Shown piece by piece: positions 7,440-45,279 of a DNA stretch of 64,000 nucleotides. Each line of letters begins with the position of its first letter. The first letter of the stretch is position 1. The DNA is from Thiopseudomonas denitrificans (lineage in GTDB: Bacteria > Pseudomonadota > Gammaproteobacteria > Pseudomonadales > Pseudomonadaceae), in NCBI RefSeq assembly GCF_002866065.1, contig NZ_LNJZ01000003.1, positions 324,667 through 388,666 on the forward strand, given 5' to 3'. The translations under genes and the position numbers were made by a program. Under the pieces are notes generated by a model. The model had not been told where the DNA came from, did not search any database, and worked only from the letters and a program-made list of their open reading frames with translations.

Positions 7440-7445
7440 TAAAAA

Positions 7446-10400
7446 CTAGAAATTAATTGTCACACCTGCACTCACTGTACGCCCCGGAGCAGGAAGCAGT
7501 GATTTTGACATGGGGTCAAGGTAATACTCGTCTGTCAGATTGGTCACGCCAAGATTAACGCTAAAATTATTATTCAAGTTGTAGTTGGCGTAAATATCGT
7601 GCAGCAGTACTGATTGCCAGTAAAAACCATCCAGACCACCTGTGAACCACGCGTCGCTTATGTAAGTTCCATAGCCGCCTGGGCCTTGCTCTGAGGCTAG
7701 AAGCTTGTCTAGTTGTTTATTTTCCGCTCCCTTATGGTAGGTGCTACGCCAGCCAAGCTCCAATCGGTCGTTAAATAATCTTGTTCCCATAAGTGCATCA
7801 ATACTGTACCTGGGTTGAAGGCTGTTGCCGCTATAGGTGCCCGGAAAGCCGCCTGTAATGCAGTCTGGTATCCTGTTATAAATTGGATCCATACCAGATG
7901 CATAATCTTTATCGCAAAGTTTTTGCTTGAGTCGGTAAGTGGCTCCAAAGCTGCCAAAATAATTACCGCTATCGAAGCGTGATTGTAACTCGATACCCTG
8001 AGTTTTCTTCTTGTCAAATTGAATAGTGTTGTAATAAATGTCACGATCAAAAAAATCTTTTATTTCAGTGTTGTAATAACTAATGCGAGCATCTGCGGCC
8101 AATAGGTTTGGAAAGAACTGACGTAAATCGTGGGCGTAGCCTATCTCCCAATTGGTACTGCGTTCAGGCTTGCTGGCACCGTTAATGGCCAGATTGCCAA
8201 GCTGACCGTTAATAAGAGTGCCAGAGGTTAATTCATTGATACTGGCAAAGCGGGTAGTTTGCGCATAACGAATAAAGGTGGTGCCAAATGGCGTGATGCG
8301 GGCGGTGGCACTCAATACCGGACTAAAGGCATCACCCGATTGTTCTTCAGGCATCTCCCAGCCTTGGCTGGCATCCAGACGCTCATAAATATCTTTACCG
8401 TAAGTCCCACCTGTAGGGCGCAATACTGCAACTTGGTTTGCTATGTTTGGCGTTCCGTCGGCACGCAAAGGGTTATCTACGGTCTGGTACAGCTTTGAAG
8501 TATCTATCTGACCGTTGGCAAAGGGGTTTTGCGACGAGTCAAGTTTTCCGTCTTTGATTGGAACAAATGCGCTTTTTTTCCAATATAGATATGCATGGCT
8601 ATTTGTATTACTGATTGATACCTCTCCATGTTTATCAATAAATTGAAAAACTGTCCCATTGGCTATGGCTTGCTGGAAGGCCAAGTTTTCTTCATCAGTT
8701 AATAGTTCTCCCCACTCTAGCAGTACGCCTGTTTTTTGCTGGGTCGTTTTAAAGTTTTCATCACGCAAGCGGCGCATTTTTGCCAGCCCTACGTCTTTGC
8801 CTTTATAGCGTGTATAACGGGTGCCAGCAGTCAGGTTAAGCCAGTCATTAGCTTGCCAGGATAAATTGAATAATGCTGAATATTCTTTACGTTCACCTGA
8901 ACGGGGGCCAAGAATTCCAGTGGAGCGGTGTAGTCCAGCACCATCAGGAAATAAACCGTTGGATTGCTTTCCTGAACTTTGAACTTTTTCATTAAGCTTT
9001 TCTTGCTGATAGCTTGTTGCCAACAAGAGTTGCAAGCTGTCGGATAAAATGAATTGATTACTTAGATCAAATCCGGTGCGATCATGCGTGGTCCATTGTC
9101 TGCCTTCTGGGTGAATAATTCCGTCGTGATCAGGCTCGGTTAAAAAATCTGCGTACTCAGGGTAGTTGGTCATCCACCAATCATAATCATGTAGCAAAGC
9201 GTTTGTTTGGTCATCGTTTGTTATACCGTAAGGGTGTGCGCCGGTTTGATAGCGAGTGCCATTGGTCTTTGTATGCCATAGGCTTGCCTCCAGATTGAGT
9301 ATGTTGGAGTCTAACGGTTTGGCTTCGTAGTCTATTTTGTAACTATCAAGGCGAAGCTTTGTACGAGGCCTTTCGTGTACAAATCTATAGTAATCCCAGT
9401 CTATGTCTATGTTTTGGTCTGTTGCCGTCTTCTCAAAGGCTTCTCTGTATTGCCAGTTTAAAATAGTATCACCTGGAGTTGTTTCACCAAATACAGTGTT
9501 TGTGCGCATGAATTGCAAGCCTATTTTTTGCTCACCTGTGAAGTATAGGTTGCTTTTAATAAGTGTTGTATCTGTTTCGCTTGAAGTGTTGAATACTTCG
9601 TCCCCGGCATAATAAAGTTTTGTCAGGTTAGGGATGAATCTGTCAGTGGTTTTTTCGTTATATATGTCATGCCCTTTGTATTTGTTTGAGTTGTTTTTCC
9701 CTGCATAATAGTTACCGCTTTTGCGCTCGCTGCGCGAAACTAGAACGTCAAAAAATTCATTGCGGCCTGCAATGGTTAGCATCTCTGAATGATCATCAGT
9801 GTTTGTTTTTGATGAGCTGCCTTTGTTGCGTGGGTTGTTGTGAATTTGAATGGCATCTGTATTACTGCGAGAAGCGCCTGGAATATCGCGATAATCTTTT
9901 CCATAAAATGAACTTGCATCATGTTTTGGTGTATTCGTATTACTGGAAGCTTTTAGGTTAGCCTCTACCCCCCAGTTATCACCCTCTGGAATAATGTCGT
10001 TGGCTTCAATGGTGCGGACATTTACCGAGCCGCCAACCCCGCTTTTAATGCCACGGCTCAGGGAAGTGCCTTTTTCTACCTCGATGCTGCGAAATAATGC
10101 GGGGTCTACATAGCTGCGGTTGCCAACGCCAAAGGTGTGCAGCCAGACGTTGGTGGACTGCTCGGTGCCGTCGATGGTCAGCGGCACCCGGCCTTCACCG
10201 GTGATGCCGCGAATGTTGGGGGTAATGGCCTGGCTGCTGCGGGTGTCCATGCTGTACACGCCGTTCATGCCTTTGAACACGTCGCCGGGGTTGGAGGTTT
10301 GGAAGCGCTGTAATTCCTCACGCCCCTGGTACACGCTGGTGACGTTTTCGTTGTAGACGTTGTTGTGGCCGACTTCGTCCGGGTTGAGCCGGCCGCCGTA

Positions 10401-10805
10401 AACAACAGCAGTGGGCAGGGCGGTGCTGTCGACGCTGGTTTGGGCCAGTTCTAGCCGGTAGCTGCCGTTGGGCTGGGCGCTGGCGTATAGGCCGCTGCCG
10501 GCGAGCATGCTTTGCAGGGCGCTAGCGGTGCTGTATTGGCCCTGTACGCCAGCGGACTGGCGACCCTGTACCCGTTCCGGACTGTAGGCCAGGCTGATGC
10601 CGCTTTGGGCGGCAAACTGTTGCAGGGCGGTTTCCAGGTTGCCGGCTGGAATGTTGAAGCTGTGCAGGGCGCTGTTTTCGGTTTGCGCCTGCGCCAGGTT
10701 AAGCGGGGCGCTGAGGGCGGTGGTGCCCAGGCTGAGGCAGGCAATTAAAATGGCGTGGCTGAGTGGCTTGCGGTGAAAGCCTGTAAGGGGTTGTTGGGTT
10801 GGCAT
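7446..10805 (-). CDS. TonB-dependent receptor with STN signalling domain, hemophilin/haem receptor type (HphR-like)
   Basis: A 1119-residue outer-membrane receptor: signal peptide (about 1-41), STN domain (about 48-118; FNIPAGNLETALQQFAAQSG), plug (about 135-270; TPNIRGITGEGRVPLTIDG) and a very long barrel ending GVTINF. The STN domain lets a ligand-loaded receptor signal to the FecR protein encoded just upstream. It should import haem or a haemophore-borne ligand using TonB energy; specificity is inferred from the hemophilin-like and Slam genes downstream. The coding strand is AT-rich in the barrel portion (about 7.5-9.96 kb) and GC-rich in the STN/plug portion, suggesting a mosaic origin. 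Confidence 0.8.
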   Translation of the reverse strand: MPTQQPLTGFHRKPLSHAILIACLSLGTTALSAPLNLAQAQTENSALHSFNIPAGNLETALQQFAAQSGISLAYSPERVQGRQSAGVQGQYSTASALQSMLAGSGLYASAQPNGSYRLELAQTSVDSTALPTAVVYGGRLNPDEVGHNNVYNENVTSVYQGREELQRFQTSNPGDVFKGMNGVYSMDTRSSQAITPNIRGITGEGRVPLTIDGTEQSTNVWLHTFGVGNRSYVDPALFRSIEVEKGTSLSRGIKSGVGGSVNVRTIEANDIIPEGDNWGVEANLKASSNTNTPKHDASSFYGKDYRDIPGASRSNTDAIQIHNNPRNKGSSSKTNTDDHSEMLTIAGRNEFFDVLVSRSERKSGNYYAGKNNSNKYKGHDIYNEKTTDRFIPNLTKLYYAGDEVFNTSSETDTTLIKSNLYFTGEQKIGLQFMRTNTVFGETTPGDTILNWQYREAFEKTATDQNIDIDWDYYRFVHERPRTKLRLDSYKIDYEAKPLDSNILNLEASLWHTKTNGTRYQTGAHPYGITNDDQTNALLHDYDWWMTNYPEYADFLTEPDHDGIIHPEGRQWTTHDRTGFDLSNQFILSDSLQLLLATSYQQEKLNEKVQSSGKQSNGLFPDGAGLHRSTGILGPRSGERKEYSALFNLSWQANDWLNLTAGTRYTRYKGKDVGLAKMRRLRDENFKTTQQKTGVLLEWGELLTDEENLAFQQAIANGTVFQFIDKHGEVSISNTNSHAYLYWKKSAFVPIKDGKLDSSQNPFANGQIDTSKLYQTVDNPLRADGTPNIANQVAVLRPTGGTYGKDIYERLDASQGWEMPEEQSGDAFSPVLSATARITPFGTTFIRYAQTTRFASINELTSGTLINGQLGNLAINGASKPERSTNWEIGYAHDLRQFFPNLLAADARISYYNTEIKDFFDRDIYYNTIQFDKKKTQGIELQSRFDSGNYFGSFGATYRLKQKLCDKDYASGMDPIYNRIPDCITGGFPGTYSGNSLQPRYSIDALMGTRLFNDRLELGWRSTYHKGAENKQLDKLLASEQGPGGYGTYISDAWFTGGLDGFYWQSVLLHDIYANYNLNNNFSVNLGVTNLTDEYYLDPMSKSLLPAPGRTVSAGVTINF

Positions 10806-10923
10806 GCATGAGTCTCTGTTCTAATTAGGTTATTCCTCGAACGAAAATGCTAGAGATAATCGTTCCTATCTATAGAGCCGAACAGTACTGCCAAATCAAC
10901 AACCCCTGATGCGAAATATTTTT

Positions 10924-11853
10924 TTATGCGTGGTCGATGCGTGTCCAGTAGCCGGCCAGTTGGCGGGTCTGGATGGGCAGGGTGGCGCTGAGGCTGTCGA
11001 GGATGGCGCGGGTGTTGTCCAGGTGAAAGGCACCGGATACCCGCAGCGCTGCCGCCGCCGGGGTGTAGCTGATTTGGCCGCTATGGTAGCGGTTGAGCTG
11101 GTCGAGAAACTCGCCCAGTGACCAGTTGCTGACAATCAGCATGTCCTGTGTCCAGCTGTCGGCGTGGGCGGCCAGTGGCTGGATGGGCCCGACCTGTTGC
11201 GGGGTAAAGCGGCTTTGCTGGCCGCTGTGCAGGATGACCGGGCTGGCGTCGGCACGGGTGGGGCGGATTTCAACCGAGTGCTGGTGAACCTGTACCAAGC
11301 TGTTGTGTGCGGTGCTGTAAACCTGAAAGCGGGTGCCCAGGGCACGCACTATGCCGTGGCGGGTATGTACGCTGAACGGGCGCTGGTCGGCGGCGGTGGT
11401 GACCAGAACTTCGCCTTCGCGCAGGTGCAGGATGCGTTGCTGGCTGTTGTATTCAATGTTGAGGGCGGTGGCGGTGTTGATTTCGACCTGGCTGCCGTCG
11501 TCCAGCGTCAGGCTGCGGCGCTGGCCGGTGGCGGTGCGCTGGTCGGCAAAGCGGTTGGCAATCGGCTGGCGCTGGCTGTAGCCGGTTACGCCCACGGCCA
11601 GCAAGACCGCCAGCGCCTGAATCATGTGGCGGCGCGAGTAGCGGGCGTTTTGCAGGCTGACACTGGTGAGGTTGTCGGGCAGGCGGTTGAAGCTGTGTTG
11701 CAGCTTTTCCATGCGCTGCCAGGCTTGGCGGTGCAGCGGGCTTTGCTGGAGCCATTGCTGGTGGCGGGCATGCAGCGGGTCGCCGGGTGCGGCCTGTTGC
11801 AGGTCCACATGCCAGGTGGCGGCCTGTTCGAGAATTTCAGCAGTCAGTTTCAT
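10924..11853 (-). CDS. fecR: FecR-family anti-sigma factor
   Basis: A 309-residue inner-membrane sensor with an N-terminal cytosolic domain containing the conserved W-rich region (HRQAWQRMEKLQ), one membrane segment near residues 76-92 (MIQALAVLLAVGVTGY), and a periplasmic FecR domain (LDDGSQVEINTATAL, then LREGEVLVTTA). It should hold the adjacent ECF sigma factor and receive a signal from the STN domain of the receptor. Its start overlaps the sigma gene by 17 bases, implying translational coupling. The receptor gene follows after 118 bases, room for a sigma-dependent promoter. The family symbol is generic, not a claim of citrate specificity. Confidence 0.85.
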   Translation of the reverse strand: MKLTAEILEQAATWHVDLQQAAPGDPLHARHQQWLQQSPLHRQAWQRMEKLQHSFNRLPDNLTSVSLQNARYSRRHMIQALAVLLAVGVTGYSQRQPIANRFADQRTATGQRRSLTLDDGSQVEINTATALNIEYNSQQRILHLREGEVLVTTAADQRPFSVHTRHGIVRALGTRFQVYSTAHNSLVQVHQHSVEIRPTRADASPVILHSGQQSRFTPQQVGPIQPLAAHADSWTQDMLIVSNWSLGEFLDQLNRYHSGQISYTPAAAALRVSGAFHLDNTRAILDSLSATLPIQTRQLAGYWTRIDHA

Positions 11854-30546: not shown

Positions 30547-31430
30547 CAAAAATAAAAGCACTGTGGCTAGTGTTGATGGCGGGGCTGTCCTGCAGTGTGC
30601 AGGCCGCTCCCGACCTGACTCGCAAAGTCGAGCATTCCTGGGATAAACAGGATTCGTCGCTGTACCAGTTTGAGCAACATGCCCTCTCTTCTGCCGACGG
30701 GCAGCGACATTACCGAATCACTCTGGCCAGACCGAAGGCAGCGATGCCGGAGCGAGGTTATCCGGTGCTTTATGTGCTGGATGGCAATGCCGCTCTGGCT
30801 GCCCTCGATGATTCCGTGCTGGCTGGCATGGCTGGCGGTGACTGGCCGGCGGTGGTTGCTATCGGCTACGACACCGACCTGTATTTTGATTCGCCAGCAC
30901 GTAGCTTCGACTATACCTTCACACCGCTGCAGTCGCCCGCAGATGGCCGGGCGTACGGCGGGGCAGAGCCTTTCTGGCGGCTGATCGAAGACAGGGTCAA
31001 ACCGCTGGTGCAATCTCGCGTACAGCTGGACCTGGCTCGTCAGACCTTGTGGGGTCACTCGTTTGGCGGACTGTTTGTATTGCATGTGCTGTTTAACCAC
31101 CCAGATAGCTATCAAGGATATGTGGCTGCTGATCCATCGCTGTGGTGGCAGGGTGGGCTGGCTCTGGAACATGAAAAGCTGGCTGCACAGCGTCTTGAGC
31201 ATGCGACAGCCATGGTGGTGATACAACGCAGCCAGTCAAGGCGCAGTACCGATACCCTGCCGGAAGACGCGACCCGCCAGCTGGCGCTCAGGCTGTCAGC
31301 CCGGCCGGGCCTGACGGTTGAATATCATGAATACTTTTCACACAGCCACGGCAGCCTGCTTGCTGCATCGTTGCCTGAAGCGTTGCGTGTTGCACAGCAG
31401 GCCGGTATTGCTGCTGACAACTCCCGCTGA
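30543..31430 (+). CDS. periplasmic siderophore esterase, IroE/PfeE-like
   Basis: A 295-residue alpha/beta hydrolase with a signal peptide ending CSVQA, the esterase-D fold start (YPVLYVLDGNAALAAL), a nucleophile elbow GHSFGG (Ser about residue 178) and a likely catalytic His in SHSHGS near residue 264. IroE and PfeE hydrolyse ferric enterobactin-type tri-esters in the periplasm to free the iron. The start overlaps the CobN-like stop (ATGA at 30543), and the next gene is a FepA/PfeA-type receptor 39 bases on, so esterase and receptor form a unit. Catecholate tri-ester specificity is inferred from this pairing. Confidence 0.8.
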   Translation: MTKIKALWLVLMAGLSCSVQAAPDLTRKVEHSWDKQDSSLYQFEQHALSSADGQRHYRITLARPKAAMPERGYPVLYVLDGNAALAALDDSVLAGMAGGDWPAVVAIGYDTDLYFDSPARSFDYTFTPLQSPADGRAYGGAEPFWRLIEDRVKPLVQSRVQLDLARQTLWGHSFGGLFVLHVLFNHPDSYQGYVAADPSLWWQGGLALEHEKLAAQRLEHATAMVVIQRSQSRRSTDTLPEDATRQLALRLSARPGLTVEYHEYFSHSHGSLLAASLPEALRVAQQAGIAADNSR

Positions 31431-31469
31431 TTGCGGAGATTCACCATACTCACAGAAGAGGTAATACCT

Positions 31470-33740
31470 ATGCATAAATCCATCTGGCTATTGAGCGCCC
31501 TGCCCGTAGCTGTTGCCATGCATACACAGGCAGCTGAATCCGATGTGCACGACCTTGGCCAAATGCTGGTCACCGCCAAGGAAGAGCTGAAGCAGGCCCC
31601 GGGCGTGTCCATTATTACTGAGGAAGATCTGGCCAAGCGTCCGGTCAGCAATGATTTGTCCGAAGTGATCCGTACCATGCCGGGCGTCAACCTGACCGGC
31701 AACAGCACCAGCGGCCAGCGCGGCAATAACCGGCAAATTGACATTCGCGGCATGGGGCCGGAGAACACCCTGATCCTGATTGACGGTCGGCCGGCCAGCA
31801 GCAGGATGTCGGTACGTTATGGCTGGCGTGGCGAGCGCGACAGCCGTGGCGACACCAACTGGGTGCCGATGGAAGCGGTCGAGCGCATCGAGGTTTTGCG
31901 TGGCCCGGCAGCGGCACGCTATGGCAGCGGTGCTGCGGGTGGTGTGGTCAATATCATTACCAAGGGCGTGCCTGACCAACTATCCGGGCAGGTGACCGCG
32001 TACATGAGCCAGCCGCAGTCCTCCAAGGACGGTGCCAGCCGGCGGACCAATTTCATTCTGTCCGGCCCTCTGTCTGACAAGCTGGGTTTCCGCCTGACCG
32101 GCAACGTTGCCAAAACCGACTCCGATGACCGGGACATCAACCGCGGGCACCAGTCAACCCGTGGTGTGGCAACCAACGGCACCGATTATCGTAATACCTA
32201 TCCGGCCGGCCGCGAGGGCGTACGCAACCGGGATCTGGCCGCCAGGCTGGTGTTCCAGCCGGTGGCCGATCATCAGTTTGACCTGGATGCCAGCTTCAGC
32301 CGCCAGGGCAACATCTATACCGGTGACACGCAAAACACCAACAACTTCACCACCAATTCGAGCGGCAACCTGGTGGCGACCTCTGAGCGGGTGGACAAGT
32401 ATATCGGGCGTGAAACCAACATCATGTACCGGGAAAACTATGCCTTTACCCACCGCGGCGAGTATGACTTTGGCCGCTCGCTGAGCTATGTGCAGTACGA
32501 AAAGACCCGCAACCGCCGCCTGGACGAAGGGCTGGCTGGGGGTACCGAGGGGCTGTTCTCCGATGACAACATGACAACCTCGACATTGAACCAGTACCAG
32601 CTGCATACCGAGTTCGACATGCCGGTCGAATTGCTGGGCCTGAACCAGATGCTTACAGTGGGTGGTGAATGGACGCACAGCACCCTCAACGATGGCAACT
32701 CGATGACCCAGACCACCACCGAGGCGGGTGCAGTGCCCGGTCTGGCCGCGCAGCGCAATAGCCGTAGCCGCGACCACATGCTGTCGTTTTTTATCGAGGA
32801 TAATATCGAGCTGAACGATAAAACGCTGCTGACCCCGGGCCTGCGTTATGACAAGCACAGCGTCACTGGCGGCAACTGGAGCCCTGCGCTCAACCTGTCA
32901 CACGAGTTTGCGCCTGACTGGACGGTCAAGGCCGGTATCGCCAGGGCCTACAAGGCACCCAACCTGTACCAGACCAACCCGAATTACCTGCTGTATAGCC
33001 GTGGCATCGGTTGCTGGGGTGCAGCCGGCGCCTGCTACCTGCAAGGCAACAAGTACCTGAAGGCGGAAACCAGCGTCAACAAGGAGCTGGGCGTTGAGTA
33101 TGCCGGCGACAACCTGGTGGCAGGCCTGACCTGGTTTCACAACAGTTATCGCAACAAGGTGGAAGCTGGTACCGTAGCGGTCGGCCAGGCGGTTGGGGGC
33201 TCCAATACCACTTATGCCAATGCCGATGTGTTTACCTGGGACAACGTGCCGCGTGCCGTGATCGAAGGGCTTGAGGGCACCTTCAATCTGGCGTTGACGC
33301 CCAGCCTGTATTGGTCAAACAACCTGACCTGGATGCTGCAAAGCAAGAACAAGTCCACCGGCGAGTCGCTGTCGATCATTCCGGAGTTCACGCTCAACTC
33401 GCGGTTGGAATGGCAGACTACCGATGCCTTGAGCCTGTATACCCACGTCACCTGGTACGGCAAACAGACACCCAACAAGTACGACTATCAGGGCAAACGC
33501 ATGTCCGGTGAGGAACAAAGCCAGTTGTCACCTTATGCCCTGGTGGGTGTCGGGGGGCGTTATGTGCTCAATGATCAGCTGTCCTTTACCGGCGGTATCG
33601 ACAACCTGTTCAACAAGCGTTTGTACCGCAAGGGTAACGCGGTTGGTGTAGGCGATCCGCGCAACATCTACGGAGCGGGTGCTGCCACCTACAACGAGCC
33701 GGGCCGCAGCTTCTATGCATCGGCAACCTATGCGTTTTGA
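31470..33740 (+). CDS. TonB-dependent ferric-catecholate receptor, FepA/PfeA family
   Basis: A 756-residue receptor with a signal peptide ending MHTQA, a plug (about 15-170; QIDIRGMGPENTLILIDGRP, VLRGPAAARYGSGAAGGVVN) and a barrel ending FYASATYAF. The DGRPASSRMSVRYGWRGERD stretch is characteristic of FepA/PfeA/IroN enterobactin receptors. The ATG at 31470 follows AGAGG with 8-base spacing. With the esterase upstream it forms a ferric-enterobactin-type uptake pair. Its last ten codons recur, slightly altered, at 41267-41296 and 48543-48572. Confidence 0.85.
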   Translation: MHKSIWLLSALPVAVAMHTQAAESDVHDLGQMLVTAKEELKQAPGVSIITEEDLAKRPVSNDLSEVIRTMPGVNLTGNSTSGQRGNNRQIDIRGMGPENTLILIDGRPASSRMSVRYGWRGERDSRGDTNWVPMEAVERIEVLRGPAAARYGSGAAGGVVNIITKGVPDQLSGQVTAYMSQPQSSKDGASRRTNFILSGPLSDKLGFRLTGNVAKTDSDDRDINRGHQSTRGVATNGTDYRNTYPAGREGVRNRDLAARLVFQPVADHQFDLDASFSRQGNIYTGDTQNTNNFTTNSSGNLVATSERVDKYIGRETNIMYRENYAFTHRGEYDFGRSLSYVQYEKTRNRRLDEGLAGGTEGLFSDDNMTTSTLNQYQLHTEFDMPVELLGLNQMLTVGGEWTHSTLNDGNSMTQTTTEAGAVPGLAAQRNSRSRDHMLSFFIEDNIELNDKTLLTPGLRYDKHSVTGGNWSPALNLSHEFAPDWTVKAGIARAYKAPNLYQTNPNYLLYSRGIGCWGAAGACYLQGNKYLKAETSVNKELGVEYAGDNLVAGLTWFHNSYRNKVEAGTVAVGQAVGGSNTTYANADVFTWDNVPRAVIEGLEGTFNLALTPSLYWSNNLTWMLQSKNKSTGESLSIIPEFTLNSRLEWQTTDALSLYTHVTWYGKQTPNKYDYQGKRMSGEEQSQLSPYALVGVGGRYVLNDQLSFTGGIDNLFNKRLYRKGNAVGVGDPRNIYGAGAATYNEPGRSFYASATYAF

Positions 33741-33984: not shown

Positions 33985-34200
33985 TTATGTGTTGGGTTGT
34001 TGGTTGCTTTTATCAGGCTCTTGATCTTTCCTCAGAGCTAGAACAAGAAATACGCCGATGGTGGTCGATATGGTGGCAGTATTTCTTTGTTCGGTATCGC
34101 CAGTTATCGCAAAGTAAAATACCAAGGCTGTGCTAATTAAAGTTAGAACTGAAAACAAGTAAATTGCTATCTCTCGCACATAATAGGTGTTGTTAGTCAT
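33985..34200 (-). CDS. small two-helix membrane protein in microcin operon
   Basis: A 71-residue protein with two hydrophobic segments (about residues 10-32, IAIYLFSVLTLISTALVFYF, and 44-56) and a charged tail. It is the last gene of the minus-strand microcin operon, 60 bases after the TolC gene. Small membrane proteins in such operons are often self-immunity proteins, but no family is recognised and it may simply be accessory. Confidence 0.5.
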   Translation of the reverse strand: MTNNTYYVREIAIYLFSVLTLISTALVFYFAITGDTEQRNTATISTTIGVFLVLALRKDQEPDKSNQQPNT

Positions 34201-34260: not shown

Positions 34261-35577
34261 TCACTCAAACAGCATATTTATTTCATTTAGATCTTGAGGG
34301 GTGAGTGAGCCAACAGTCGCTTTTAGTTGAAGTTTAGCGAGTAAAATATCGTAGCGCACTTTGGCAAGTTGCTGCACGATATCGCTCAGCTGGCTTTGAA
34401 CTTCAAGAACATCTGCACTTGTACGCATCCCAAGCTGGTAGCCCTTTTGGTTAGATCTTACAGCTGCATCTGCAGAACTCTGGGCTGTTTCTAATGCTTT
34501 GAGTTGAGCAATGCCATCCATAACACCTGCCCACGCCTCGCGTGCGGCCAGGGCTGTACTGCGCCGTGTATCCTCTAGTTCATACTTGGCCTGTTCTCGT
34601 AACGCTAAGGCTTCCCGGGTAGATGAGGTCGTCCTGCCACCGCTGAATAACGGAATATTCAATCGTATACCAATGGCTGCAGACTCACTGCGCTCTGTGC
34701 TGGCATTGGGGCTTTGCTGCATACTTTGGCTGACCACCATATCAATTGTTGGCAAGTGTTCAGCCTTGCGGCTTCGAACATCATTATCAGTAATTTGTAG
34801 TGATAATTCCTGAGCCTGCACTTCAAGGTTTCCCCGCTCCGCAGCCGTGACCCAGGTTTCGACATCAGTAGGTTCTGGAGGACTCAGCATCACTCGATTT
34901 CCCAAGCGTTTAAGTGATCCAGGGTGTCTGCCAGTGAGTTGAGTAAGTGCCTGCTTGGCTAGTACCAGGGCGCTCTTGGCTTTTACCAGCTGTGCGATGG
35001 TTCTGTCGTGACTCATCTGGGCCTCATGCACATCAACGATGCTGGCATTGCCCAGATCAAAATTCTTGCGTGCGCTGGCTAGCTGTAGCTCGTCTGCAGC
35101 TTGCAATTGCTCCAGTGCATCAATCACATCGACCATGTTCAGAACATTGAAGTACGCTTCAGTCACGCGTAGTATTAATGCTTGGCCCGCACTCTCCGCT
35201 TGAAGGTCGGCCAGTAGTTTTTGTTGTTGGCCCTGTTTGTATTGAATCCAGTTCTGCCAGCGAAACAACGGTTGTACCAGTTGAACGCCATAGCTGCGGT
35301 TTTGACGGCGTTGCTCTACCGTTCCAGTGACGACCTTATATTCAGTTTCACTCCAGCTTGTTTGAGCATCGAATGAAATCTGCGGCAATAAACCTGCTCG
35401 CCCTTGGATTGGCTGTTCATCTCCGACCCGTCGTTGCGCCAATGAGGCGGCATACTGCGCGTCATGTCTTAAAGCAAGCCGGTAGATTTCCATCAAATCA
35501 TCGGCCTGAACCGGATCAGCCACACACACAACCCCCCAAGCCCACAAAATCAGCCATCTTCCCTTCTTTTGTTTCAT
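34261..35577 (-). CDS. TolC-family outer-membrane channel for microcin export
   Basis: A 438-residue protein with a signal peptide ending DPVQA and the TolC repeat architecture: DLMEIYRLALRHDAQYAAS at the start, QGRAGLLPQISF, and a second half with SAAIGIRLNIPLFSGGR and YQLGMRTSADVLEVQ. It should form the outer-membrane part of a type I secretion system with the C39 ABC exporter (4-base overlap upstream) and the HlyD-like adaptor of the same operon. A dedicated TolC in a microcin locus means the system need not rely on the housekeeping TolC. Confidence 0.87.
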   Translation of the reverse strand: MKQKKGRWLILWAWGVVCVADPVQADDLMEIYRLALRHDAQYAASLAQRRVGDEQPIQGRAGLLPQISFDAQTSWSETEYKVVTGTVEQRRQNRSYGVQLVQPLFRWQNWIQYKQGQQQKLLADLQAESAGQALILRVTEAYFNVLNMVDVIDALEQLQAADELQLASARKNFDLGNASIVDVHEAQMSHDRTIAQLVKAKSALVLAKQALTQLTGRHPGSLKRLGNRVMLSPPEPTDVETWVTAAERGNLEVQAQELSLQITDNDVRSRKAEHLPTIDMVVSQSMQQSPNASTERSESAAIGIRLNIPLFSGGRTTSSTREALALREQAKYELEDTRRSTALAAREAWAGVMDGIAQLKALETAQSSADAAVRSNQKGYQLGMRTSADVLEVQSQLSDIVQQLAKVRYDILLAKLQLKATVGSLTPQDLNEINMLFE

Positions 35578-37661
35578 GCTAGAGCTTGGTCCTCATCAAG
35601 ACGGACGTCTTCCACGATACTGCCGCGTTCTAGGCAAACAATGCGCTTGGCGAACGCAATGGTTTCTCGGCGGTGTGCTATGGTGATCCTAGTTAATGTC
35701 ATTTGATGCAGCGACTTGACGATGTGCTGCTCGCTATGCAAATCTAAATGACTTGTAGCTTCGTCCATGGCTAAGATACGAGGGCGTTTGTATAGTGCCC
35801 GTGCCAGCATGATTCGTTGTTTCTGTCCCCCGGAAAGTCCGCTGCCCATTTCAGCAACCAAAGTTTGATAACCCATAGGCATTTGAGTGATTGCTTTGTG
35901 GATGTGCGCTAGATGTGCCGACTCTTCTACTCGTTCCTGATTTGCTTCCGGATCAAAACTGGCGATGTTTTCGGCCAGCGACCCTGCCAATAACTGATCT
36001 TCCTGCATCACGGCACCGACCAGATTGCGCAGTATTTGAGGCCCCAGTTGTCGAACGGGTATACCACCTACTAGTATCTCGCCTTCGGTAGGACTTAGCA
36101 GGCCCAATATCAGCTTGAATAGGGTGCTTTTACCACACCCTGAACGACCTACGATGGCAACGGAATCACCAGCCTCAATGGTTAGGGACAGGTTCCGCAG
36201 CACCCATGGTTCACCTTCGGCATAGCGGAAAGACACGTCGCGCAGCTCGATACTTGGCTGTATCCGATCCAGGTCGGTCTCCATCATGCTTTCAGGTTCT
36301 GGCAGCTCCAGTGCAATGTCAGCCAACCGCTCCGCATGCAGCGATAACATCCTTATTTCAACACCAAGATCAATTAATTGACTGGCTCGACCAGTAAATT
36401 GGCTCTTGTAGGCAATAAATGCCAGCAGCATGCCCAGCGACAGATCCCGTTCTAGAACAGCCATGCCCCCGACATAGAGTAGCAGCATGCCCTCCAGGCT
36501 GAAGATCAAGGTGTTTAGGCTGGAAAATGCCAGCAACAGCTTTTGGGTAGCGACATCGCGATTCTGAACATCGGCAAGCAGGTTTTGCCAGGTCGATAAA
36601 CGCAGTGAGGTCATATCGAACAGCTTGAGGGGCTGCACCGTCCGGATCGTTTCCAAAAAATAGGAGTTTTCGCGTGCGGCCAATACGATACGTTCTTCAG
36701 AGGCATTACGTAGTGGTTGATAAAATACAACCCTCAGGATGGCGTACAACGTCAAGGCAACCACGACGATACCGGTTAAGACGGTGCTGTAGAGCAACAT
36801 CATGCCCAGCGTAATCAAAGTGACCAGGCCATCAAGGATTACCATGATCGCCCCGTTAGTGAGAACGTTGCGTATGGCCGCCAGGGAATGGAAACGAGCA
36901 GTAATATCGCCGAGCTGGCGTTTCTCGAAAAATGTCCAAGGTAGACGCAGCAGATGGCTGAAGAGGTTACCCGACCACTGCAGCGCAAGCTGTTGATTCA
37001 ATCGTAATTCCATCCAGCCGCGTGCCATACGTAGAATGAAATCAATGAGCATCAACAAGCAGCCCCCGAGCACAGCAATCAGCAGGAGATCATGATCGGC
37101 TGACACCAAGGCACCATCGACCACCCACTGTGTTACCTGCGGAGAAAGCAGCGCTACTATCTCCAATGCGAGTGCCAGGATGAAGATATTGCCCAAGGCC
37201 CGTTTCAGTCCCGCCGCACGACCAATCAGATCGCGAAGGCGAATCCGGGTTTTCTGCTGAGCGGGTTGAAACGAGGTGTTTGGCGTCAGTTCCAACGCAA
37301 TACCAGTAAAATGTGTAGAAGCCTCGGTCCATGATGTCACGCGGCGCCCTACTGCAGGATCAAGCAGGTATAAACGCCCCCGCTGCACTTTCTCCAGAAC
37401 CACAAAGTGATTCATGTTCCAGTGCAGGATGCAGGGCAGCCTGAGCTTGCTCATTTCGTCAAGATCAAGCCGCAAAGGCCTACAGGAAAAACCCAAGTTT
37501 TGCGCGTAATGCCCAAGTTGGGCTAGGTTGGTACCTTTCAACGAGATTGAAAAGCGCCGGCGCACACTCATCAAATCAAGGTGAAGGCCGTGGTACCCGG
37601 CTATCATTACCAGACAAGCCAGCCCGCACTCCTGACTCTCTGTTTGCAATACCGCTTTCAT
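35574..37661 (-). CDS. peptidase-containing ABC exporter (C39 peptidase, CvaB-like)
   Basis: A 695-residue exporter: an N-terminal C39 cysteine peptidase (about 1-125; catalytic Cys in ESQECGLACL, His in LHWNMNHFVVL, Asp in LLDPAVG), a six-helix membrane domain (about 150-430) and a C-terminal ATPase (Walker A VGRSGCGKSTL, signature LSGGQKQR, Walker B ILAMDEATSHLD). C39 exporters cut double-glycine leaders and export the peptide. The microcin precursor in this operon has exactly such a leader. It overlaps the TolC gene by 4 bases. Confidence 0.9.
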   Translation of the reverse strand: MKAVLQTESQECGLACLVMIAGYHGLHLDLMSVRRRFSISLKGTNLAQLGHYAQNLGFSCRPLRLDLDEMSKLRLPCILHWNMNHFVVLEKVQRGRLYLLDPAVGRRVTSWTEASTHFTGIALELTPNTSFQPAQQKTRIRLRDLIGRAAGLKRALGNIFILALALEIVALLSPQVTQWVVDGALVSADHDLLLIAVLGGCLLMLIDFILRMARGWMELRLNQQLALQWSGNLFSHLLRLPWTFFEKRQLGDITARFHSLAAIRNVLTNGAIMVILDGLVTLITLGMMLLYSTVLTGIVVVALTLYAILRVVFYQPLRNASEERIVLAARENSYFLETIRTVQPLKLFDMTSLRLSTWQNLLADVQNRDVATQKLLLAFSSLNTLIFSLEGMLLLYVGGMAVLERDLSLGMLLAFIAYKSQFTGRASQLIDLGVEIRMLSLHAERLADIALELPEPESMMETDLDRIQPSIELRDVSFRYAEGEPWVLRNLSLTIEAGDSVAIVGRSGCGKSTLFKLILGLLSPTEGEILVGGIPVRQLGPQILRNLVGAVMQEDQLLAGSLAENIASFDPEANQERVEESAHLAHIHKAITQMPMGYQTLVAEMGSGLSGGQKQRIMLARALYKRPRILAMDEATSHLDLHSEQHIVKSLHQMTLTRITIAHRRETIAFAKRIVCLERGSIVEDVRLDEDQALA

Positions 37662-37697: not shown

Positions 37698-38852
37698 TTA
37701 GTTGCGTGATAGTTCCAGTACATCCTGGCGACAAAGTTCAGTAACGAGGTTACAGAGTCTGTCGGCATTAATGTCAGGATGTTTGGTGATTAGCTCAGCC
37801 AGGCAAGTTTCCGGATGTTCGGCAATCCAGCGTATCAGACGTACACCCTGATCATCCAAATTCAACCGGGTGCCGTTTGCAATCAAGTAACCGTCATCAA
37901 GATCAAGAGGTCGATGAACATTTAGGCGCAACCCAGCTTGCCTGGGAATTCCGGTTGATGCGGGATTTCCAAACAGCTCGATAGCTAGCGGAGATTGATT
38001 TCGGATTGCCCCGACAAATTCGTCCATGAAGTGTCGGTAGTGCTTTGGATCGTTGATGAATGAATTAAAATGATGCCCCACAGCTACAAGCGTACTTTGG
38101 TCGTTTTTCCAGTCACTGAGAGAGCGGCGTGCCTCCAAAAAAGCGGGCATCTGCTTGATAGCCCAATCCAAGTAGTCCACGGTGTAGGCGGGGAATGTAC
38201 CCAGGGCCAAATGAAATGTAGCCTCGCCAATGGGGAGAGGATTATGCCACCAGCCACGGGGAAGGTAGAAAACATCTCCTGGTTCCAAAATAAAATCCAT
38301 ATAGGGTGTTTCCGGACAAGGATATTCGTGCTCATAGTCCTTGCTCTGTTGGGTGTAGAGTGGTGCCTCGAAAGAGGGTTCGTAGACAATCCAGCGCTTA
38401 CGACCGATCAACTGGATAGCGAAAACATCACGAGTGTCCCAATGGCAGCGGAATGAGTCTCGTGAACCGAACGCTGCATAGGCACTGCTCACAACTTGTC
38501 TGCCGGTAAACTCGGCTACCTTAGCCGCAAATTGGTTAACTGCAGGCTCGTTTGCAATTTTGTTCGCGATTAATGTGGCACCTTTACGCAAGAACTCATA
38601 AATCACTGGCTTGATTAGGCGGTGTCGTAATGTACCAATGTCCCAGTAACTCTCTACATACTCACTTTTGGGACGAATCCCTTTGTAAGAAAGTTTGAAA
38701 TCATTGGATGAAACATTACATCGTTCGAATATTTCATTGACGTTTTGCCAGGAAAAAACACCCGGTGATACAGCTTCTTTTATAAGAACAGGCTTTTTTT
38801 CCTGATAGCATTCTATGAATTCGTTGGTGGAAATATTGAATTTAATGCTCAT
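37698..38852 (-). CDS. JmjC/cupin oxygenase of the YcfD (ribosomal oxygenase) type
   Basis: A 384-residue protein with a JmjC-type cupin: HWD at residues 137-139 supplies two iron ligands and PRGWWH (His203) the third, matching the spacing in YcfD (125, 127, 187). The sequence ILEPGDVFYLPRGWW is the family's second cupin motif. The C-terminal 60 residues (GVRLIRWIAEHPETCLAEL) resemble the winged-helix end of ribosomal oxygenases. YcfD hydroxylates an Arg in ribosomal protein L16 using Fe(II) and 2-oxoglutarate. Here the gene lies between a microcin precursor and its exporter, so the peptide itself is a plausible substrate; that is inference. Confidence 0.78.
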   Translation of the reverse strand: MSIKFNISTNEFIECYQEKKPVLIKEAVSPGVFSWQNVNEIFERCNVSSNDFKLSYKGIRPKSEYVESYWDIGTLRHRLIKPVIYEFLRKGATLIANKIANEPAVNQFAAKVAEFTGRQVVSSAYAAFGSRDSFRCHWDTRDVFAIQLIGRKRWIVYEPSFEAPLYTQQSKDYEHEYPCPETPYMDFILEPGDVFYLPRGWWHNPLPIGEATFHLALGTFPAYTVDYLDWAIKQMPAFLEARRSLSDWKNDQSTLVAVGHHFNSFINDPKHYRHFMDEFVGAIRNQSPLAIELFGNPASTGIPRQAGLRLNVHRPLDLDDGYLIANGTRLNLDDQGVRLIRWIAEHPETCLAELITKHPDINADRLCNLVTELCRQDVLELSRN

Positions 38853-38952
38853 GAGATAAGCGCCTAGAGTTGACGGAATGCATAAGCCGCCAAGCTCCTA
38901 AGTTTGAGTTTTATTAAATAGCTTCTGGTGGTTTATAAAATGCTCGGTAGTT

Positions 38953-38973
38953 GTTCAGCTACAACAGCTGAAC
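38953..38973. terminator. hairpin downstream of microcin gene
   Basis: GTTCAGCT and AGCTGAAC form a perfect 8-bp stem around a 5-base loop, 21 bases beyond the microcin stop on the minus strand. With no T-run, it may be a partial terminator or an mRNA 3' stabiliser keeping precursor expression above that of the downstream genes. Confidence 0.5.
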
Positions 38974-38993
38974 GGCTATGGTCGAGGCTGGCC

Positions 38994-39332
38994 TTAGTTG
39001 TAATTGGTTCCTGCGGCATTGTTGTAATCAGTTCCTGCCTGATCTGCTGCTCTTTGTGCAAGTCCTCCAGCCATCCCTCCGTAAAATCCAACCTGAGTAC
39101 CAACAATTGTGAGTGCGCCAGCCTGCATGGCAGATATTCCAGCGGGACCAGTAAGTCCGCCGACAATAGCTCCTGTCACTGTACTGCCAAGAAGTCCTGT
39201 CAGGCTTCCTTCTCCCGAGCCTATCGCCTGTCCGATATATGTTGCTGCGCCGCTGGCTGCACCGATTACAGCACCAACAGGGCCAAAGGCTCCAGACACT
39301 AGTTGCATATCTCGAATGGATAGTTCACGCAT
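38994..39332 (-). CDS. class II microcin-like precursor peptide (double-glycine-type leader)
   Basis: A 112-residue peptide. The N-terminus MRELSIRDMQLVSGA matches the microcin V/class II leader pattern (MR.L....L..VSGG), with Gly-Ala instead of Gly-Gly at the cut site, giving a core of about 97 residues. The core is rich in Gly/Ala/Ser with hydrophobic stretches (VGAVIGAASGAATYIGQAIG, GAIVGGLTGPAG), like membrane-inserting microcins, and ends in an Asn/Tyr-rich tail (TDYNNAAGTNYN). AAGGAG sits before the start. A C39 exporter, adaptor and TolC are in the same operon. Activity and target are untested. Confidence 0.8.
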   Translation of the reverse strand: MRELSIRDMQLVSGAFGPVGAVIGAASGAATYIGQAIGSGEGSLTGLLGSTVTGAIVGGLTGPAGISAMQAGALTIVGTQVGFYGGMAGGLAQRAADQAGTDYNNAAGTNYN

Positions 39333-39364: not shown

Positions 39365-39622
39365 TTAAAAAATTAAAAATTTTGCTGCGCCACTAATAAT
39401 CAATGCGAGGGGGAGCAAAATTAGAATGGGTGTTGTGCTCTTTTTGTCATAACGCTGCCCCTTTGCATGCAATAGCAATATATAGATTCCAAACAAGACT
39501 GCATAGGCCAGCAGGCCAAGAATCGTGGCTAGCCAGAAGTCTGAAAAGTCCCCCAGTACAAACTTTGCACCCAGGAAATCAATAGACCATTCTTCGTTGC
39601 TATAGAGTTTTGGTTTTTCCAC
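39365..39622 (-). CDS. candidate microcin immunity protein (two-helix membrane protein)
   Basis: An 85-residue protein with two membrane segments (about residues 29-52, FWLATILGLLAYAVLFGIYILLL, and 64-85) joined by a basic loop (HAKGQRYDKKS). It lies 32 bases upstream of the microcin precursor in the same direction, the position and topology usual for class II microcin immunity proteins. No named family is recognised. Confidence 0.6.
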   Translation of the reverse strand: MEKPKLYSNEEWSIDFLGAKFVLGDFSDFWLATILGLLAYAVLFGIYILLLHAKGQRYDKKSTTPILILLPLALIISGAAKFLIF

Positions 39623-39687: not shown

Positions 39688-40980
39688 CTACTCGATCCAT
39701 TTTCCCGTAACGGAATAAATAGGCTCCAGCGCCCACTCATAAAGCCGGCGTTTGTCTTGAATAATGTCGGCTTCCAATAGCATACCAACTTGAAGGGGCT
39801 GCGGTACTCCATAGACCGTCTGGTTCTGTGACTCAAGCTTCAGCGTTACGCGGTAGAACAGCTCGCCAGCACTTGTTGAGTCCTGAAGTGCGCTGGCGAC
39901 ATGTGCTGGAAGCTCCTGAATGGCATAAGGGCTTTTCGCTACATCCAGTACCTGTGCTCGTGCCGCGCCAAATTTCTGGTAGGGGTAGGCGGCATAGCGC
40001 ATCAGGGCAGTCTGCCCGGGCTCAATAAACCCGGCTTGTCGCGGAGAAATATAAGCATGGGCTGTCAGCTCTGCCTCATGTGGAATCAGGCTTGCCAGCA
40101 GCGTCCCTGCCATAACTTGCTGGCCAAGCTGGACGCCTACACCGGAAACATATCCGGGAAAAGGAGCTGAGATAATTTGCTCAGTGCGTACATCGTTTTC
40201 TGCCCGTTCCTGCCTGACAAGAGCAATGGCGTTGTCGATATTGGAAACCTCAACCTGGGCCTCAAGTTCGGTTTCTTCACGCTGTGCAAGAAGATTGATC
40301 CGCTCCCGGGACAAGCCCGCATGGGTGCGGCGTAATGTTTGTTGTTGGCCTTGCAGTGCCAACTGTTCCGCTTCGGCCTGCTGCAATTGTGCAACGGAGA
40401 TGAAATTTTCGGATAGCAGTTCCTTTTGGCGCTGTAGGTGAGCCTGAGCCAACGCTACGCGACGTCCTTGCAAATGAATCTCATCACCTAGGCGAGCCAG
40501 CTCTTCATTAATGGCATGTAGCCGGTTGTCGAACATGCGACGTTGTGCAACAGCGCGATTGTCGGCTAAGACACGATTGCTCTCTAACAAACGCAGGCGT
40601 TGCTCCAATTGCTCCGAAATCAATTGTTGTGTGCCTCCAGCCGAACTGAGTCGCTCGCCGGAGACGACAAAGAGTACGTCTTCCTGCTCAACTGATTGTC
40701 CCTCGGTCACTCGGACTTCGGAGATGAAGCCGACAGCATTTGAGGAAAGACGTAACATGCCGTGCTCGGGCATCAGTAATCCTGTAACCGTCGCTTTGCG
40801 CGTATAGGTCCCAAAATAGGCGTATGTGCACGCGATGATGATGAGAGCAATCGAAACAGCAGCTGTCACTGTGTAGCTGACAGGTTGATGGATGAGCACG
40901 CGTCCTTGATACCCAGCACGGCTTCCAAGACTGGCTTCGGGCCGAAATAATGGTTGCTCGTCAGATTTTTCTATTGCCAT
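39688..40980 (-). CDS. HlyD/CvaA-like membrane fusion protein
   Basis: A 430-residue adaptor: N-terminal cytosolic stretch, one membrane helix (about residues 34-57; YTVTAAVSIALIIIACTYAYFG), a biotinyl-lipoyl-like half motif (VGFISEVRVTEGQSVEQED), a long coiled-coil region (about 120-270) and a second lipoyl half (APFPGYVSGVGVQLGQQVMAG). It should link the C39 exporter to TolC. It is the first gene of the minus-strand microcin operon; the promoter must lie in 40981-41270. Confidence 0.87.
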   Translation of the reverse strand: MAIEKSDEQPLFRPEASLGSRAGYQGRVLIHQPVSYTVTAAVSIALIIIACTYAYFGTYTRKATVTGLLMPEHGMLRLSSNAVGFISEVRVTEGQSVEQEDVLFVVSGERLSSAGGTQQLISEQLEQRLRLLESNRVLADNRAVAQRRMFDNRLHAINEELARLGDEIHLQGRRVALAQAHLQRQKELLSENFISVAQLQQAEAEQLALQGQQQTLRRTHAGLSRERINLLAQREETELEAQVEVSNIDNAIALVRQERAENDVRTEQIISAPFPGYVSGVGVQLGQQVMAGTLLASLIPHEAELTAHAYISPRQAGFIEPGQTALMRYAAYPYQKFGAARAQVLDVAKSPYAIQELPAHVASALQDSTSAGELFYRVTLKLESQNQTVYGVPQPLQVGMLLEADIIQDKRRLYEWALEPIYSVTGKWIE

Positions 40981-42465: not shown

Positions 42466-43482
42466 ATGTCATTTTTCAATAAACCGTTCAGGGCCGCCCT
42501 GCTGGCGACTGCCATTACTGCAACGGGTACTGCACTGGCCGCCCAGGACGGCTATCCGCTAACCCTGGACAACTGTGGCCAGGTTCTGCAGTTCGATGCC
42601 GCTCCGGCGCGGGTGGTCACGGTTGGTCAGGCCGGCACCGAGATCCTGTATCGCCTGGAACTGCAGGAGTATGTGGCTGCGACGTCCAACTGGTTTACCG
42701 ATGTCGCGCCCCAGTTCAAGGACATCAACGCCGGCATCGAGCGGCTGGCCGACAACTTCCCCAGCTTCGAGAGCGTGGTGGCCAAGCGTCCGGCGCTGGT
42801 AACTGCCGACTTCTTCTACGGCATTGGCCCGCAGGGCGTGGTAGGCAAGCGCGAGCAGTTCCACAGCCTGGGTATCAACACCTATGTACTGGCATCGCAG
42901 TGCCTGGACCAGGACTCCTCCAAAGGTAGCGACGGCGTGCGTACGGCCATGTTCTCGCTGGACAGCCTGTACCAGAACATCAGTGATTATGCGGCGATCT
43001 TCAACGTGAAGGCCAAAGGTCAGGCGCTGGTTGACGAGTTGAAACAGCGCGAAGCCCACGCCATTGAGCGTGCAGGCAAGCTGAAAAACAGCGGCCAGTC
43101 GGCCGTGGTTTGGTACTCCAGCGCCGACATGGAAATGGACCCCTGGGTAGCGGGTGCCAGCGGCGTGCCGGCCTGGATGATGCAGACCCTGGGCGTGCGC
43201 AATGTGGTTGAGTCCAACGAAGTCTGGCCATCGGTGGGCTGGGAGTCGATTGCTAAAGCCGACCCGGACGTGATCGTGCTGGCGGAGATGAGTCGTCGCC
43301 GTTTCGAGGCCGATGATGTAGAGGCTAAAATCGAGTTTCTGCGTACCGATCCGGTAACCCGCGAGATGAAGGCAGTGAAGAATGGCCGCATCGTGGTGAT
43401 GGATGCCCACGCCATGGAAGTGACCCTGCGTGCCATCGAGGGGCTGGAAACACTGCTGGCAGCGCTTGAGAGCAATGAGTAA
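42466..43482 (+). CDS. FecB/BtuF-type ABC importer substrate-binding protein
   Basis: A 338-residue periplasmic binding protein with a signal peptide ending TALAAQ, then PLTLDNCGQVLQFDAAPARVVTVG, the start of the class III (FecB/BtuF) fold. Such proteins bind ferric siderophores, haem or corrinoids. CAGGAG lies upstream and a strong Fur box precedes it, favouring an iron-related ligand. Its stop overlaps the permease gene by 8 bases. The downstream pseudoazurin, OprD porin and MFS genes make the ligand less obvious than in ordinary siderophore loci. Confidence 0.82.
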   Translation: MSFFNKPFRAALLATAITATGTALAAQDGYPLTLDNCGQVLQFDAAPARVVTVGQAGTEILYRLELQEYVAATSNWFTDVAPQFKDINAGIERLADNFPSFESVVAKRPALVTADFFYGIGPQGVVGKREQFHSLGINTYVLASQCLDQDSSKGSDGVRTAMFSLDSLYQNISDYAAIFNVKAKGQALVDELKQREAHAIERAGKLKNSGQSAVVWYSSADMEMDPWVAGASGVPAWMMQTLGVRNVVESNEVWPSVGWESIAKADPDVIVLAEMSRRRFEADDVEAKIEFLRTDPVTREMKAVKNGRIVVMDAHAMEVTLRAIEGLETLLAALESNE

Positions 43483-44527
43483 CAGCTTGGTGCAACCGGT
43501 AGCGGCTCCGCTTCGCCGTGGTGCCATGCTGATACGTGGCCTGCGCCGGCTGGGGCTGGGCTTTGCGCTGGTGGTGGTAGCCATTTTGCTGGCCACCGCC
43601 ACCGGCGAAAGCAGCATCGCGTTGGATACTGTTCTCAAGACGTTGGCCAACCAGTTGCTGGGCACCACCTACGAACTGGATGCCATCGACCGGGGTATCA
43701 TCTGGGAATACCGCCTTAGCCGCGCCATTGTGGCGGCCAGTTGCGGTGCGGCGCTGGCGGTATGTGGCCTGATCCTGCAGTCGCTGCTACGCAACGTGCT
43801 GGTGGACCCCTACATTCTGGGCATTTCGGCGGGGGCTTCCGCCGGTGCCGTGGCGGTCGCCATTGCCGGTATGGGTGCCGGTGTGCTGTCGATGTCGGCG
43901 GGTGCCTTTCTGGGTGCTGTATTGTCCTTTGCCCTGGTGGTAGGGCTGGCGCGCATGACCGGCCAGATCATTCTGGCGGGCATTGCCGGTGCGCAGCTGT
44001 TTCATGCGCTGTCGTCGCTGATGATTACCAAGTCGGCCAATGCCGAGGCGGCGCGCGGCATCATGTTCTGGATGCTGGGCAACCTTAGCGGCGTGCGCTG
44101 GGATGACGTGGCGCTGGCCGTGCCGGTGGCTGTGGGTGGCGTGTTGGTGGCCGGCCTGTATACCCGCGCACTGGATGCCTTCACCTTTGGCAGCCAGTCG
44201 GCGGCGGCGCTGGGCATTGCCGTTACCCGCGTCAAGGTGCTGCTGATTGCGTTGACTGCACTGATGACGGCGGTAATGGTCTCCATGGTCGGCTCGATTG
44301 GCTTTGTCGGGCTGGTGATTCCGCATGCCGCCCGCTATCTGGTCGGCGTGCGCCATGCCGTGCTGCTGCCGGCCAGCGCGGTGATGGGGGCGGTGTTTCT
44401 GGTGCTGTCCGATATTCTTTCGCGGGTGGTGGTACCCGGCCAGGTGTTGCCCATTGGCGTGGTCACCGCGCTGATCGGTGCGCCGGCTTTTGCCCTGATC
44501 CTGATCCGTGGAGCACGTACCCCATGA
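43475..44527 (+). CDS. FecCD-family ABC permease
   Basis: A 350-residue permease with about ten membrane helices and FecCD motifs: CGAALAVCGLILQSLLRN, DPYILGISAGASAGAV, and SIGFVGLVIPHAARYLVG near residue 270. It should carry the substrate delivered by the upstream binding protein. The ATG at 43475 overlaps the binding-protein stop, and the stop overlaps the ATPase start by 4 bases, so the three are coupled. As a single permease it would act as a homodimer. Confidence 0.88.
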   Translation: MSNSLVQPVAAPLRRGAMLIRGLRRLGLGFALVVVAILLATATGESSIALDTVLKTLANQLLGTTYELDAIDRGIIWEYRLSRAIVAASCGAALAVCGLILQSLLRNVLVDPYILGISAGASAGAVAVAIAGMGAGVLSMSAGAFLGAVLSFALVVGLARMTGQIILAGIAGAQLFHALSSLMITKSANAEAARGIMFWMLGNLSGVRWDDVALAVPVAVGGVLVAGLYTRALDAFTFGSQSAAALGIAVTRVKVLLIALTALMTAVMVSMVGSIGFVGLVIPHAARYLVGVRHAVLLPASAVMGAVFLVLSDILSRVVVPGQVLPIGVVTALIGAPAFALILIRGARTP

Positions 44528-45279
44528 TTTGCGCACGCAACCTTCATTACCGGCTCAAGCGCAAGGCGCTGGTGCAGGATGTGTCCTTCGAGCTGCAAGA
44601 TGGCGAAGTGCTGGGGCTGATCGGCCCCAACGGCTCCGGCAAGTCTACCCTGCTGCGCATGCTATCCGGCATTTTTCGGCCAAGCGCGGGGCAGGTGCTG
44701 CTGCAGGGACGCTGCCTGAGCCAGTGGCCACGCCACGAAATTGCCCAGCATATGGCCTTTGTCGAACAGCAGGCGGAAACCCACGAACGCATCCGCGTGC
44801 GTGATGCGGTGGAGCTGGGCCGCACGCCCTGGCTGTCGCTGCTCAACCCCTGGTCGGCGCAGGATGACGCCATTGTTGGCCAGGCCATGGATGCGCTGAA
44901 TGTCGGCCACCTGTCGCAGCGCATCTGGCACAGCCTGTCCGGCGGCGAGCGTCAGCGGGTACACCTGGCGCGGGCGCTGGCCCAGCAGCCGCAACTGCTG
45001 TTGCTGGACGAACCGACCAATCATCTGGACATCCAGAACCAGCTGACCATTTTGCGGTTGGTGGACGAGTTGCCGGTCAGCATCATCATTGCCCTGCACG
45101 ACCTTAACCAGGCCATGCGCTGCGACCGCCTGCTGCTGATGCACGAGGGGCGCGTATTTGCCCTGGGCCCGCCCGCCAGGGTGCTGACCCCGGACAATAT
45201 CCGCGAAGCCTTTGGCGTCAACAGCCGCCTGCTGCACGACCCGGAAACCGGCCAACCCAACCTTGTTTTTACTGACTGA
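44524..45279 (+). CDS. FecE-type ABC ATPase
   Basis: A 251-residue ATPase with Walker A GPNGSGKSTL (about residues 37-46), signature LSGGERQR, Walker B LLLLDEPTNHLD and the H-loop ALHDLNQAM, as in FecE/BtuD ATPases. It powers the FecCD permease just upstream (4-base overlap). Its C-terminal region (VNSRLLHDPETGQPNLVF) is the usual end for this family. Confidence 0.88.
   Translation: MICARNLHYRLKRKALVQDVSFELQDGEVLGLIGPNGSGKSTLLRMLSGIFRPSAGQVLLQGRCLSQWPRHEIAQHMAFVEQQAETHERIRVRDAVELGRTPWLSLLNPWSAQDDAIVGQAMDALNVGHLSQRIWHSLSGGERQRVHLARALAQQPQLLLLDEPTNHLDIQNQLTILRLVDELPVSIIIALHDLNQAMRCDRLLLMHEGRVFALGPPARVLTPDNIREAFGVNSRLLHDPETGQPNLVFTD

Follow-up and report, generated by a model that had tools for sequence, protein, structure and literature searches.

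The usual view of class II microcins is that they are either unmodified apart from disulfides or bear a siderophore. In Acinetobacter baumannii ATCC 17978, the microcin gene of the Mcc17978 locus (mcaABCD) has as its neighbor a 'cupin-like' gene, mcaB, which was reported to protect a sensitive strain by itself (PMC10333792). For Mcc1229 of E. coli, deletion of mctC abolishes activity, and immunity lies in mctDE (PMC8853679). The JmjC or cupin-like hydroxylases BipG and PbsQ act on RiPP precursors, as in biphenomycin (PMC12707348, PMC12257519), and bacterial homologues of PF08007 proteins with RRE-like folds are noted to occur in RiPP-like settings (PMC12710340). We found no report of JmjC modification of a class II microcin or bacteriocin in full-text searches covering mainly literature outside subscription journals.

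We analyzed a 64,000-nucleotide stretch of DNA from Thiopseudomonas denitrificans (the window) that contains a microcin operon with a JmjC oxygenase gene. A sequence-only reading of this DNA had suggested a new modified microcin. Of the readings considered, a class II microcin that undergoes modification has the best support, to which the G-x-[ND]-Y tail accompanying the JmjC gene contributes. The idea that the arrangement was unreported had to be rejected, because related loci are described for McaB (PMC10333792) and MctC (PMC8853679); JmjC hydroxylases of RiPP precursors are also known from BipG and PbsQ. What is new here is the G-x-[N/D]-Y tail, which accompanies the JmjC gene on otherwise divergent precursors.

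RESULTS

The operon consists of six genes on the minus strand that together span 40980 to 34261; neighboring genes either overlap or are separated by short gaps. First comes a gene for an HlyD-family membrane fusion protein of 430 aa (39688..40980 (-); HlyD_3, 6.5e-13, with a TIGR01843 match below its cut-off). The second encodes a small protein of 85 aa with a GTG start and two hydrophobic segments (39365..39622 (-)), which is a candidate immunity protein; a promoter-like site matching at 10/12 positions lies just upstream (39669-39640), such sites not being enriched across the region. This two-TM gene precedes the microcin precursor gene by 32 bp. The precursor (112 aa, 38994..39332 (-)) was called as an open reading frame and aligned with orthologous precursors. 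It begins with the leader MRELSIRDMQLVSGA, and the codons of its conserved C-terminal tail, GTDYNNAAGTNYN, occupy 38997..39035 (-); this tail holds two G-x-[ND]-Y units and is the proposed modification site. Next are the genes for the JmjC (PF08007) 2-oxoglutarate/Fe(II) oxygenase (384 aa, 37698..38852 (-)), recognized by Pfam, its iron ligands and a model of its C-terminal winged helix, and for a C39 peptidase-containing ABC exporter (695 aa, 35574..37661 (-); Peptidase_C39 1.8e-34, ABC_membrane, ABC_tran). The sequence-only reading had placed the JmjC gene between the precursor and the C39 exporter, and the open reading frames fall exactly where it put them. The last gene, for a TolC-family outer membrane protein of 438 aa (34261..35577 (-); TIGR01844 above its cut-off and an OEP/TolC Pfam match), overlaps the exporter gene by 4 bp. 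The intergenic stretch between precursor and JmjC gene measures 141 bp and contains a stem-loop. We offer only as a suggestion that this stem-loop, 5' of the JmjC gene, fits a precursor made in excess of its enzyme.

The microcin operon is flanked on one side by genes for a putative esterase and a TonB-dependent receptor (30567-33740 (+)) and on the other by an iron-type uptake operon (42466-45279 (+); Peripla_BP_2, FecCD, ABC), which has a strong Fur-box-like site at 42400 (16/19). Directly upstream of the microcin operon, the best Fur-box score was 12/19 and none rose above background; therefore, we claim no iron control for it.

The leader MRELSIRDMQLVSGA is of the GA-ended double-glycine type, as is usual for class II microcins, and, together with the C39 exporter, membrane fusion protein, and TolC, makes up a class II microcin export set. 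The predicted mature peptide has 97 aa, no Cys, and an unmodified mass of 8981 Da, under the class II limit of about 10 kDa. Judged by its sequence, the product is a class II microcin, with predicted antibacterial activity. We rejected class IIb: the tail GTDYNNAAGTNYN is not of the Ser/Gly-rich type, and neither the ORF list nor Pfam revealed a siderophore-attachment gene within the operon. Class IIa is defined by disulfides as the sole modification; here, the mature peptide has no Cys, and a probable modifying enzyme, of predicted action, is encoded.

The JmjC protein matched the Pfam family JmjC_2 (PF08007) with E=3e-28 and 98 bits (cut-off 22). Its HxD...H iron ligands (His137, Asp139, and His203), which the sequence-only reading had described as kept, are invariant across six relatives ranging from 73% down to 38% identity. 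That reading also gave the protein a winged-helix end, and an AlphaFold model of the C-terminal 89 residues (296-384; mean pLDDT 76) bears this out. The modeled domain has the element order bbb-aaa and matches MINA53 (Z 8.1, 79 aligned, 2.5 A) and NO66 (Z 7.3, 85 aligned, 2.8 A). The corresponding Pfam profile, PF20514 (ROXA-like wH), scored above its cut-off in relatives L006 and L001 and below it on the window's own winged helix. The model also matches the RREs TigE, MibB, TbtB, TruD, PbtF, and lasso B1 (Z 7-9); because these scores are middling and ordinary, unrelated winged helices score equally, we treat the likeness as a hint only, one consistent with PMC12710340. For the whole enzyme, an AlphaFold model built from four sequences was poor in the JmjC core (mean pLDDT 44). 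By profile, ligands, and winged helix, the enzyme is a ROX-type JmjC_2 2OG/Fe(II) oxygenase, with catalysis predicted.

The description 'YcfD-like' fits only loosely. In a single-sequence search, the nearest PDB sequences were NO66/MINA (4.5e-12), followed by YcfD (about 5e-5), whereas NO66/MINA and YcfD tied in a profile-based search. The same genome has a separate RoxA/YcfD gene directly after purB, and the window's JmjC protein shares only 26% identity over 213 aa with that RoxA. Given this separate gene, the JmjC gene is not the ribosomal housekeeping copy, and we ruled out its identification as YcfD/RoxA, the L16 arginine hydroxylase.

Across an alignment of 12 precursors, only four columns are invariant: G14, G58, and the terminal G and Y. 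The cores are divergent, with a mean identity of 0.40 and a minimum of 0.21. The tail GTDYNNAAGTNYN is common to the window and locus L003, and the other JmjC loci have the tails GTNYNISGTGYQ, GTDYNVAGTNYN, AGTNYN, AGTNYNR, GTSYNEAGTNYN, GIDYGTDGTGYN, GSDYGDGTNY, DGTNYDGTNCDGTNYN, and GLNYCGGGY. Some terminal units have Gly in the N/D position (GTGY, GGGY), and each such precursor has another N/D unit. In L023, the unit is repeated (DGTNY DGTNC DGTNYN). The A. baumannii precursor (L007) ends in GNDYCEDGGNY. In the N. gonorrhoeae locus (L006), a GG leader and the tail GNGYTDGTDYC follow the JmjC gene directly in two reading frames; this precursor is thus frameshifted in that record. The exporter frame of L006 is also cut short, at about 573 aa, and farther along there is another GG precursor, whose end is Cys-rich (NCQCGEDCHCDPCNC); these features all fall within 7300-11651. 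In L022, a second short open reading frame with a GG-leader-like start (VRELNVSGIDKLRGGAVPVMVGG...) and no tail lies ahead of the JmjC gene (6821-6955).

The sequence-only reading had suggested looking for such genes in other microcin operons, and they do recur. A profile search with the enzyme was positive in 10 of 398 Pseudomonadaceae genomes, and one further JmjC genome came from another family of the same order. At the thresholds used, we detected no further clear homologues at the class level (369 genomes) or in the genus of G1122 (124 genomes). Plasmids of A. baumannii and two records from N. gonorrhoeae also carry relatives of the enzyme, and the Moraxella catarrhalis plasmid pLQ510 has a degenerate copy. 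Immediately downstream of this broken gene (L008 39-1120) come the known mcb bacteriocin genes; their precursor, McbC, has no G-x-[ND]-Y tail.

A GG-type precursor and a C39-ABC gene accompany the JmjC gene in all 11 genomes (10 Pseudomonadaceae and one from the other family). No orphan copy was detected among them; in the survey, the gene was found only in microcin operons. Because this gene set is shared by 10 of the 398 Pseudomonadaceae genomes and by a genome of another family, the arrangement is not due to chance.

The G-x-[N/D]-Y tail is present in 10 of 10 Pseudomonadaceae JmjC operons, as well as in the other-family operon, A. baumannii, and N. gonorrhoeae. As controls, we used 20 Pseudomonadaceae loci that have a related C39-ABC exporter (38 to 51% identity) and no JmjC gene. 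None of the open reading frames in these 20 loci has a G-x-[ND]-Y tail, and the seven GG-type precursors recognized among them end differently. The association (10/10 versus 0/20) has a Fisher p of 3e-8 when loci are counted irrespective of relatedness; since a single exporter clade accounts for nine of the 10 loci, there are closer to four independent cases (the clade, L027, Acinetobacter, and Neisseria). Because the same kind of tail occurs in L027, with an exporter only 44% identical, and in A. baumannii L007 and N. gonorrhoeae L006, with JmjC proteins 38 to 40% identical, the link between tail and enzyme recurs in distant lineages.

DISCUSSION

We consider it probable that the enzyme hydroxylates the tail of the precursor before export. 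The gene content, the catalytic ligands, the conservation, and the co-occurrence of tail and enzyme are the observed basis for this reading. In the cytoplasm, the JmjC 2OG/Fe(II) oxygenase would bind the precursor, perhaps by means of its RRE-resembling winged helix, and would hydroxylate residues within the G-x-[N/D]-Y units at the C-terminus; the Asn or Asp before Tyr is the likeliest site. The C39 exporter would then cut off the GA-ended leader, secretion would proceed with HlyD and TolC, and the small two-TM protein would confer immunity. Class IIb microcins suggest, by analogy, a role for the modified tail in uptake via a TonB-dependent receptor. Established targets of ROX enzymes are Arg and His residues of ribosomal proteins; since the tail has neither residue, its hydroxylation would require a shifted specificity. 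Terminal units with Gly in place of Asn or Asp also speak against this reading. The main counter-evidence is the reported protection by mcaB, as an enzyme that modifies the precursor would not obviously protect.

That protection keeps alive the main rival, which we judge unlikely: the JmjC protein may be an immunity factor that makes the microcin ineffective by hydroxylating a producer protein, either the microcin target or a helper. Self-protection had also been raised by the sequence-only reading, and it draws published support from a spotting assay in which pmcaB alone protected a sensitive strain (PMC10333792). Moreover, L007 has the mca gene order, and its relative of the window's enzyme is full-length. 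An L16-type ribosomal target is unlikely given the separate RoxA. Against an immunity role, each JmjC operon already has a usual immunity candidate, since a small membrane protein gene lies near the precursor in every JmjC locus, A. baumannii L007 included. In L025, three small membrane genes stand in tandem between precursor and JmjC gene (8226-9130), as if immunity genes had accumulated. Immunity genes often occur as orphans. At the downstream end of the window's operon, an orphan TM gene (33985..34200 (-), 71 aa) encodes a protein with 49% identity over 67 aa to the product of a precursor-adjacent gene in L026 and is probably an orphan immunity gene for a sibling microcin. Standing alone, this gene behaves as an immunity gene would, whereas the JmjC gene was never found alone in the 11 genomes. 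Immunity would also leave the strict link to the G-x-[ND]-Y tail unexplained, and the related MctC is needed for activity while immunity maps to mctDE.

An enzyme with a dual role, which acts on the precursor tail and, in a target cell, makes that cell less sensitive via the microcin or its target, would reconcile the tail association with the mcaB result; we nonetheless regard this as quite improbable, and contact between a cytoplasmic enzyme and a microcin arriving from outside is unlikely. Alternatively, the tail might bind a receptor and have nothing to do with the enzyme, which would then act elsewhere on the precursor. Class II microcins do enter via outer membrane receptors, and Mcc17978 uses Fiu/PiuA, but the tail is missing from relatives that lack JmjC, including L072, whose core starts similarly, and a tail with receptor binding as its only role is very improbable. 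Finally, a second ribosomal (L16-type) oxygenase that sits in the operon by happenstance would share the Pfam family and winged-helix end, yet with RoxA encoded separately next to purB, the low identity between the two proteins, and a gene found only in microcin operons in the survey, this explanation is hardly credible.

If tail hydroxylation by the JmjC enzyme is correct, a hydroxylase-modified subclass would be new chemistry for Gram-negative bacteriocins, and a fold known from ribosomal protein hydroxylation would enter peptide antibiotic maturation. A PF08007 gene next to a precursor ending in G-x-[ND]-Y would then provide a simple signature for genome mining. Tentatively, and with low expectation, the JmjC loci might form a third class II microcin subclass, in which hydroxylated, repeated G-x-[N/D]-Y units make a metal-binding or siderophore-like tail (e.g., with beta-hydroxy-Asp/Asn) for uptake through catecholate-type TonB receptors.

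Comparison with known systems places the window's operon among several partial counterparts. We rejected the Neisseria nap island, a different bacteriocin-like locus for which no cupin or JmjC gene is mentioned (PMC11798529). NO66, MINA53, and YcfD/RoxA share the JmjC_2 domain, the HxD...H ligands, and the winged-helix end; however, they are known to target His or Arg of ribosomal proteins, and the window's gene is separate from the genome's RoxA. BipG and PbsQ are JmjC 2OG oxygenases with a ribosomal precursor peptide as substrate, as proposed for the window, although the residue they hydroxylate is an ornithine within a short macrocyclic RiPP whose synthesis involves several other enzymes. 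We identified MctC of Mcc1229 as a JmjC_2 protein with 28% identity over 211 aa to the window's enzyme. Pfam detects no winged helix in MctC (297 aa), and the MctA precursor has a Cys-rich end and neither a GG leader nor a G-x-[ND]-Y tail; the analogy is therefore loose. The class IIb microcins MccE492, MccH47, and MccM resemble the window's product in their GG-type leader and C39 export, and their modified C-terminal tail serves uptake by siderophore receptors. Their tail is Ser/Gly-rich and siderophore-bearing, whereas that of the window consists of G-x-[ND]-Y units, and the oxygenase is the only candidate enzyme. As in the window, Mcc17978 brings together a GA-leader microcin, an adjacent cupin-like gene, HlyD, and a C39-type exporter; its operon has no TolC gene, whereas the window's operon adds TolC and puts HlyD first. 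McaB has been described as an immunity protein rather than a JmjC hydroxylase, and that description does not mention the tail. By gene order alone, plasmid-borne L007 is the counterpart of Mcc17978, with a JmjC protein 38% identical to the window's and the tail GNDYCEDGGNY; if the proposed modification is correct, McaB, now filed as an immunity protein, would be reinterpreted.
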